This document shows, piece by piece, positions 24,827 through 33,227 of a DNA stretch of 37,929 nt. Position 1 is the first letter of the stretch. Each line of letters opens with the position of its first letter. Under the pieces are notes generated by a model. The model searched no databases and was not told where the DNA came from. It saw only the letters and a list, made by a program, of their open reading frames with translations. The DNA is from Caldimicrobium thiodismutans. Lineage in GTDB: Bacteria; Desulfobacterota; Thermodesulfobacteria; Thermodesulfobacteriales; Thermodesulfobacteriaceae. The position numbers and the translations under genes were made by a program. The DNA is taken from positions 1 to 37,929 of the forward strand of contig PNIE01000029.1 in assembly GCA_002877875.1 (NCBI GenBank), written 5' to 3'.

Positions 24827-26017
24827 ATGTCAGAAGAATTTAAGGTTAAAAGGACTATTGAGGAAATTAACAGAAAAATAGAAAAAGGCGAGGTTGTGGT
24901 CCTTACAGCGGAAGAATTTTCAAAGCTTGTTAAGGAAGTAGGTCCTCTTCAGGCAGCTAAAGAGGTGGATGTTGTTACTACAGGCACCTTTTCTCCTATG
25001 TGCTCATCTGGAGCCTTTATTAATTTTGGTCACACTGTCCCCGCTATAAAAGCCCACAGAGTTTGGTTAAATGATGTTCCAGCCTATGCAGGCCTTGCAG
25101 CGGTGGACATTTATCTTGGCGCAACAGAGCCCAGAGAAGACGATCCCCTAAACAAGGTCTTCCCTGGACAATTTCTTTATGGTGGAGGACATGTGATTCA
25201 CGACCTTGTTACTGGAAAAAAAGTTCTTCTCAGAGCGGTAGGCTATGGAACTCATTGCTACCCCAGAAAATCTCTTGAGATGGAGATCACTATTCATGAC
25301 CTTGTAAATGCTGTTCTCTGTAATCCAAGAAATGCTTATCAAAACTATAATGTAGCCATCAATCTCTCAGATCGAATTCTTTATACCTATATGGGTATTC
25401 TTAAACCCAATTTGGGAAATGCCAATTATGCCACAGCTGGATGTCTCTCTCCTCTCTTAAAGGATCCCTACCTTAAAACCATCGGTATAGGCACAAGAAT
25501 CTTTCTTGGTGGAGCTAAGGGTTATGTAATCTATGCGGGGACTCAGCATAAAATGGAGGTCAAGCGTACACCTAAAGGCGTTCCTATCCAGCCAGCTGCA
25601 ACTCTTATGGTTCTTGGGAATCTTAAAGAAATGAAGCCAGAGTGGCTTGTAGGCACCAGTCATTTAGGTTATGGATGTTCACTAGCAGTGGGGCTTGGAA
25701 TACCTATTCCTATTTTAAATGAAAAGGTTGCTGAATGGGCCGGATTATCTGATGAGGACCTTTTTGCCCAAGTGGTAGATTATTCTCATGACTATCCCAA
25801 CGGAATAAAACGCAACTACGGAATAGTAAGCTATGCCGAACTAAAAAGTGGAAAAATAAATATCCTTGGTAAGGAAATTCCAACTGTCCCCCTCACAAGT
25901 CTTATTAAATCAAGAGAGGTTGCTGAGATCCTTAAAGACTGGATTAAAAACGGAGAGATGCTCTTAACTGAACCAGTTTCAGCACTTCCTGGAGCGGAAC
26001 TCTTTCCTATGAGATAA
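24827..26017 (+). CDS. DUF39/HcyBio homocysteine biosynthesis protein
   Basis: TTGTFSPMCSSGAFINFGHTVPAIKAHRVWLNDVPAYAGLAAVDIYLGATEP; GGGHVIHDLVTGKKVLLRAVGYGTHCYPRK, as in the COG1900 family. Confidence 0.92.
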   Translation: MSEEFKVKRTIEEINRKIEKGEVVVLTAEEFSKLVKEVGPLQAAKEVDVVTTGTFSPMCSSGAFINFGHTVPAIKAHRVWLNDVPAYAGLAAVDIYLGATEPREDDPLNKVFPGQFLYGGGHVIHDLVTGKKVLLRAVGYGTHCYPRKSLEMEITIHDLVNAVLCNPRNAYQNYNVAINLSDRILYTYMGILKPNLGNANYATAGCLSPLLKDPYLKTIGIGTRIFLGGAKGYVIYAGTQHKMEVKRTPKGVPIQPAATLMVLGNLKEMKPEWLVGTSHLGYGCSLAVGLGIPIPILNEKVAEWAGLSDEDLFAQVVDYSHDYPNGIKRNYGIVSYAELKSGKINILGKEIPTVPLTSLIKSREVAEILKDWIKNGEMLLTEPVSALPGAELFPMR

Positions 26018-31900: not shown

Positions 31901-33181
31901 TTAATAGGGCTCTTTCTTTGAGAAAGTTATCTGTTGTGTAGTTTTTCTCCAAAGTTGAGAATACTCATCTTTGCTGCCAAAGGGAACATACCAAAGTTCA
32001 ACCTCTACTATGTATTCGTAATTTTCAGGTTTTCCATCTTTAGCAGGTACAAAAATTCTATATTCTTCCTTCTTTTCCTCAAGGGGGTGGAAAGCCCAGT
32101 CAACTAATATTCCTGATTTATCATAAGGCCCTCTTCCCATTCGATCGCCTCTTCCAAGTTGTTGAGGAACAGGCATATAAACTTTGCTATCCTGATAAAC
32201 TACTTTTCCGTCAGGGGTTTTGGCGGTCACTTCCAGGACCATCCTGTTGGGAGTTGGTCAGCCATCAGGAATAGCGTGTCCTGTTTTGTTTTTGATTTCA
32301 ATAAGACCATAAATTAAGGGTTTAATGACTGATCCGTCTCTCCAATAAATAGGTCTAAAGTGAGTAGTAAATTCTATAGCCATCTCCTGCATTTTTTTAT
32401 CTCTGTAGGCTTGTATATTATGCCCAAGCCCACTTTCTCTCATATGACAGTCCTGACAAGTCTTAGGGCCACCTTTAGCCGCATAGCTCCATAAATAATA
32501 TCCATAAAGTGTTGCACATTGAGAGGGTTCATCTAACTCAAAATTGGGACCGAGTCCATGACATTGCCCACAAAAGATGGACTCTTTCATAGTATCTACT
32601 GCTTTCATTTTTGGCATTTTGGCGTAGGGATGTTCTCCATTTTTGCTACCATAAACCGTATCTTTTTGTGGATATCCATCAACCCATTTGTGAATTATCG
32701 CATTTCTTTGATGACAAATTAAACAGTTAATATTTAATTTTTCTAACTTTTCTTGAGCTAGAGCCGAGGTTTTCTCATCTCCTTCCATATAATCAATGGC
32801 AAGTTTGATTATCTCCTGGGCTACACTATCTTCTGCCTCTATAAGTTGAGGCAAATGACATTTAGCACATATCATTAAATGCTCAACCTTAAGATCTTTG
32901 ATATCTTTAACTCCTGCATAAGGAAAATTCTTTAACCCTATCTTGTAGGCAGTTAAAATTGTGGCAATAGTTCTTCCTGTCCCAAAGATAGATCTTGCAT
33001 GTAAACTTTGCTGCCACTGCTCAGCAATGTCAGCATGACAAGTTAAGCACTCAGAAGAATCATACATGGCAACTAATTCATCCACTGTTTTTGCTTTCTT
33101 AATCCTCCCAGAGCTGCCAGCCTGCAAACCGAAAGGAACCATTAAAAAAAGTAATAACAAAATGCATCGTAGCACCATCAT
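31901..33181 (-). CDS. Five-heme multiheme cytochrome c with in-frame TGA (putative selenocysteine, residue 308); joins track ORFs 32258-33181 and 31901-32242
   Basis: Signal peptide; five CxxCH sites (CLTCH, CAKCH, CLICH, CGQCH, CQDCH); a single in-frame TGA at 32260-32258 within NKTGHAIPDG[TGA]PTPNRMVLEVTAKTPDGKVVYQDSK; frame open for 119 codons afterwards. Confidence 0.8.
32234..32246 (-). promoter_or_regulatory. Candidate bacterial SECIS apical hairpin downstream of in-frame UGA
   Basis: RNA (minus strand) CAGGA-UGG-UCCUG, starting 12 nt after UGA; 5-bp stem; G-containing apical loop about 17-19 nt after the UGA. Confidence 0.5.
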
Positions 33182-33227
33182 AACTTTACCTCCTTTAAAA
33201 TTTTGAGATTTTTAGGGGTTTTAAAGT

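Follow-up and report, generated by a model that had tools for sequence, protein, structure and literature searches.

The window analysed here, the whole stretch of 37,929 nucleotides that makes up positions 1 to 37,929 of the Caldimicrobium thiodismutans contig PNIE01000029.1, contains two adjacent minus-strand open reading frames (ORFs) which share one frame and are divided by a TGA codon. The question raised by this locus is whether it holds two genes, a cytochrome gene interrupted by a stop codon, or a single selenoprotein gene in which TGA is read as selenocysteine (Sec). Taking family identity and Sec decoding jointly, sequence comparison indicates that it is almost certainly a single gene for the multiheme cytochrome ExtKL/MccSep with the TGA decoded as Sec.

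Gene Structure and Reading Frame

The two ORFs, at 32258-33181 (307 amino acids) and 31901-32242 (113 amino acids), both lie on the minus strand in the same frame, and only the TGA at 32260-32258 and five sense codons (PTPNR) stand between them; the coordinates given in the first-pass annotation were thus confirmed. The minus strand from 33181 to 31901 forms a single reading frame of 426 residues in which the TGA, at residue 308, is the only one in frame, and a strong Shine-Dalgarno sequence (AAAGGAGGTAAAGTTATG) is found at the gene start. Read-through had been described as giving a continuous protein with a signal peptide and five CxxCH motifs, and this was recovered, with a hydrophobic signal-like stretch at the N-terminus and all five motifs. 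The part after the TGA, also noted earlier as fully open, comprises 118 sense codons without a stop, and only 6 of 20,000 base shuffles of this stretch stayed open. Standard annotation would split extKL/mccSep in two, so the gene is corrected here. The features of the locus are the following:

31901-33181, minus strand: extKL/mccSep gene, predicted to encode a 426-residue pentaheme c-type cytochrome with Sec308 (NF040886, 559 bits against a cut-off of 250; PDB 9wt8/9wt9, E about 1e-149)
33182-33197, minus strand: Shine-Dalgarno region AAAGGAGG before the ATG, from the sequence
32258-32260, minus strand: TGA codon, putatively read as selenocysteine 308 (TGA in 38 of 43 homologues and Cys in 3; aligned with Sec325 of MccSep; tRNA-Sec, selA, selB and selD in the host)
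32261-32281, minus strand: GHAIPDG segment directly preceding the Sec (residues 301-307), with G301, H302, P305 and D306 invariant in the family alignment of 33
32223-32242, minus strand: hairpin resembling a bSECIS, lying 18-37 nt past the TGA (it holds the four codons with the strongest synonymous conservation among 284 positions; 4 of 7 pairs show compensatory changes; 0 of 500 shuffles)

Family Identity

Whether this family had already been described as a selenoprotein was left open at first; it has been. The profile search proposed for the joined protein gave 558.9 bits (cut-off 250) against NCBIfam NF040886, "multiheme c-type cytochrome (seleno)protein ExtKL", with residues 4-420 aligned to positions 7-422 of the 423 of the profile. 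In addition, the protein matched PDB entries 9wt8, "Multiheme cytochrome c selenoprotein (MccSep)", and 9wt9, its U325A mutant, at E values of 2e-149 to 4e-149, in an alignment which spans residues 22-423 and places residue 308 on Sec325. MccSep itself scored 606 bits against NF040886. All five heme motifs (C45/C48/H49, C105/C108/H109, C153/C156/H157, C204/C207/H208 and C242/C245/H246) were invariant in 33 sequences. NF041027 (the GSU2204 family), another listed selenoprotein family, had no match in the host genome.

The selenoprotein status of the family was predicted in 2007 from GSU2937 and GSU2936 (PMC1914089). ExtKL has since been discussed in PMC5877670 and PMC6148476, and a review on prokaryotic selenoproteins from 2026 includes it (PMC13188914). 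The family is therefore already known and structurally solved, and the locus is a further ExtKL/MccSep and no new system.

Conservation of the TGA Codon and Host Selenocysteine Machinery

Recoding of the TGA as Sec, the central claim of the first-pass annotation, is borne out by the homologues, by the host machinery and by a SECIS hairpin. Of 43 homologues covering the site, 38 carried TGA at exactly the column of residue 308, three carried Cys, and the remaining two, divergent tandem copies with PDS replacing PDG, carried Ile or Val. Since these two tandem paralogues have Ile or Val, Sec or Cys is dispensable in some copies. The host genome (1.30 Mb, about 84% complete) contained a tRNA-Sec (79 bits) and, above cut-off, selA, selB and selD, which completes the search for selA, selB, selC and selD that had been suggested. 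Its selD (L022) is itself a TGA gene (ASG-TGA-AAKLPQ), and TGA-containing selD genes are known for some bacteria. Within Thermodesulfobacteriaceae, an ExtKL copy above cut-off was found in 15 of 32 genomes, most such copies having the TGA, and selA was found in 30 of the 32.

A SECIS-like Hairpin Downstream of the TGA

Synonymous constraint and compensatory changes close to the TGA are expected of a bacterial SECIS element. Codon choice was compared between Sec copies wherever the amino acid was identical. Over the 284 positions obtained, mean codon identity was 0.42 (sd 0.14), and the four highest values fell at codons 314 (1.00), 316 (0.95), 319 (0.88) and 318 (0.83), that is, 16-33 nt past the TGA. 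The five non-Sec copies mostly used other codons at these four positions.

The commonest form of the hairpin was GUGGUC-C[UGGAN]G-U-GACCGC, with a bulged U. It paired in 92% of cells, a percentage biased in its favour by having been drawn from the same sequences; this bias does not apply in the same way to the compensatory changes, present at 4 of 7 pairs, or to the codon test. None of 500 shuffles reached this level of pairing and every slid register was far worse, it being noted that the shuffle counts ignore relatedness and the slid registers keep it. The window gene has an A-C mismatch in place of the outermost pair. When the window sequence was folded by itself, its minimum energy was no better than that of shuffles, and RNAalifold predicted no pairs. 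The hairpin was thus recovered by pair counting and synonymous codon conservation, not by RNA folding.

Together, the alignment of the TGA in one column and the covariation in the SECIS hairpin form a clear comparative signature of the ExtKL/MccSep family, and a Sec reading of the TGA at 32260-32258 is strongly supported by these comparisons. The TGA is a stop in the standard code and a decayed family copy does exist in the host genome (C97), as would suit an ordinary cytochrome gene hit by a nonsense mutation or a sequencing error, with a truncated protein or a pseudogene as the outcome. This reading was rejected, since the alignment of the TGA across homologues refutes it, and its probability is negligible: the same TGA occurs in homologues from many families, the frame downstream is open and conserved, and so is the hairpin. 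Conservation of the codon between genera and between families rules out an isolated nonsense mutation, the alternative that had been named at the outset as a possible refutation. Equally improbable is that the downstream ORF is a gene of its own, translated from the internal ATG at 32242-32240 (codon 314). The ATG is indeed present, but AGG abuts it directly, without the spacing of a proper ribosome-binding site, as had been observed before. Moreover, most relatives have CTG or GTG at this position, and the two closest (L009 and L065) have CTG; a separate gene downstream is therefore not conserved. In addition, the solved MccSep is one chain. The two-gene reading was rejected on these three grounds.

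Predicted Structure

An AlphaFold model built from 33 family sequences had a mean pLDDT of 88 and a confident fold which continued across the TGA, with a helical heme domain to about residue 268 followed by beta strands. The best solved fold match was the pentaheme cytochrome c552 of Thermochromatium tepidum (5ze8; E 2.7e-14, TM 0.58/0.63) in a fold library ending in April 2026, MccSep being absent among the matches listed. Pentaheme c552 and the PHC of cable bacteria also gave a weak sequence match to the joined protein, and the PHC family is said to include ExtKL (PMC11976967). Invariant residues in the family alignment of 33 include, besides the five CxxCH motifs, H61, H254 and G301-H302-xx-P305-D306. 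H302, the invariant His of this last motif, is likely a distal heme ligand and a more obvious one than the Sec; Sec308 would therefore be near a heme.

Genomic Setting and Paralogues

Within the window, extKL/mccSep comes after clpP, clpX and lon and faces rho, standing alone between lon and rho, and the same neighbours flank it in four relatives (L009, L010, L013 and L065). The named relatives are Caldimicrobium and Thermodesulfobacteriaceae metagenome-assembled genomes (MAGs). None of the neighbours of the Geobacter-type ext cluster (rhodanese, porin, multiheme genes) was found at the locus, which has lon, clpX, clpP and rho instead. Neighbours of ExtKL vary elsewhere in the phylum. Thus, in Thermodesulfobacteriaceae, the ExtKL/MccSep selenocytochrome is found away from an ext cluster of the Geobacter kind. 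The addition to knowledge is small: a Thermodesulfobacteriaceae lineage with a stand-alone gene in a separate genomic setting. In the window as a whole, Rfam revealed one tRNA only, PADLOC gave no match, and the region 24827-26017 matched weakly, in a bacterium, the methanogenesis marker 16 metalloprotein (114 bits; cut-off 364).

Several paralogues were also observed. The second ExtKL copy of the host is a decayed fragment with several stops (L059; G000:C97:313-681), which resembles a second paralogue of the genus (L060, L076). The L060 copy, a Sec paralogue, lies directly after genes that by eye encode a NifS-like cysteine desulfurase and two NifU/IscU-like proteins, a neighbourhood with a possible link to sulfur or selenium. 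In L076, the ExtKL paralogue of genome G297, the Sec TGA is preceded by another in-frame TGA (GTPRTL-TGA-SMAG), which may be a mutation, a sequencing error or a second recoding. In the same genus, L058, L077 and L078 are Cys-containing ExtKL copies found alongside a Sec one; they are without the SECIS codons, and L058 has one in-frame TAA where relatives read Tyr.

Proposed Function

The window protein, a member of ExtKL/MccSep, is predicted to be an exported, probably periplasmic, pentaheme c-type cytochrome. Judging from the sequence, ribosomes would decode the TGA as Sec using SelB, tRNA-Sec and the hairpin. From the model and from homology, the mature protein is predicted to carry its five hemes in an N-terminal domain, which a beta domain follows at the C-terminus, with Sec308 within the beta part just past the invariant GHxxPD segment. 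The hemes most likely hand electrons to the Sec site or to a neighbouring heme, and a small oxidant may be reduced there, plausibly an oxyanion of sulfur or selenium. Such a reductase step, with a small chalcogen oxyanion as putative substrate, is our best guess and is proposed tentatively. For Geobacter, a role of ExtKL in selenite reduction has been suggested, though not proven (PMC5877670), and the extHIJKL cluster was linked to metal reduction (PMC6148476).

The main rival is that the protein is purely an electron carrier, whose hemes move electrons along the periplasm and whose Sec, rather than being catalytic, only tunes a heme site or gives it structure. We regard this as possible, if somewhat doubtful. 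The effect of extHIJKL deletion on Fe(III) citrate reduction in Geobacter (PMC6148476) would agree with it, as would the resemblance of the fold to pentaheme c552 and to the cable-bacteria PHC family (PMC11976967) and the position of the gene alone, without reductase neighbours, in the window and the four relatives. However, a conduit has no obvious need for Sec, the surroundings of the gene in the window, L009, L010, L013 and L065 showed no extI-type porin, and redox chemistry at the site is suggested by the retention of Sec over deep divergence and by its replacement with Cys in three copies. Returning to the reductase reading, an extended form of it appears unlikely: stand-alone ExtKL in Thermodesulfobacteriaceae would act on its own in the periplasm as a Sec-dependent reductase of a sulfur or selenium oxyanion, without relying on the ext outer-membrane conduit of Geobacter, and the Sec and Cys paralogues of one genome would be specialised for different substrates.

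Comparison with Known Systems

The c552 of T. tepidum, likewise pentaheme and the best fold match, is only 19% identical to the window protein over the structural alignment and is not called a selenoprotein in the database records examined. MccSep (PDB 9wt8/9wta/9wtb; U325A mutant 9wt9/9wtc) has its Sec325 at the place of residue 308 and comes from another species. ExtKL of Geobacter sulfurreducens (GSU2937-GSU2936) shares the five CxxCH motifs, the in-frame TGA after GHxxPDG and the beta C-terminal part, and the window protein lies far above the NF040886 family cut-off; the two differ in that the Geobacter gene sits in the extHIJKLMNOPQS cluster (PMC5877670), whereas here it is a lone gene between lon and rho.
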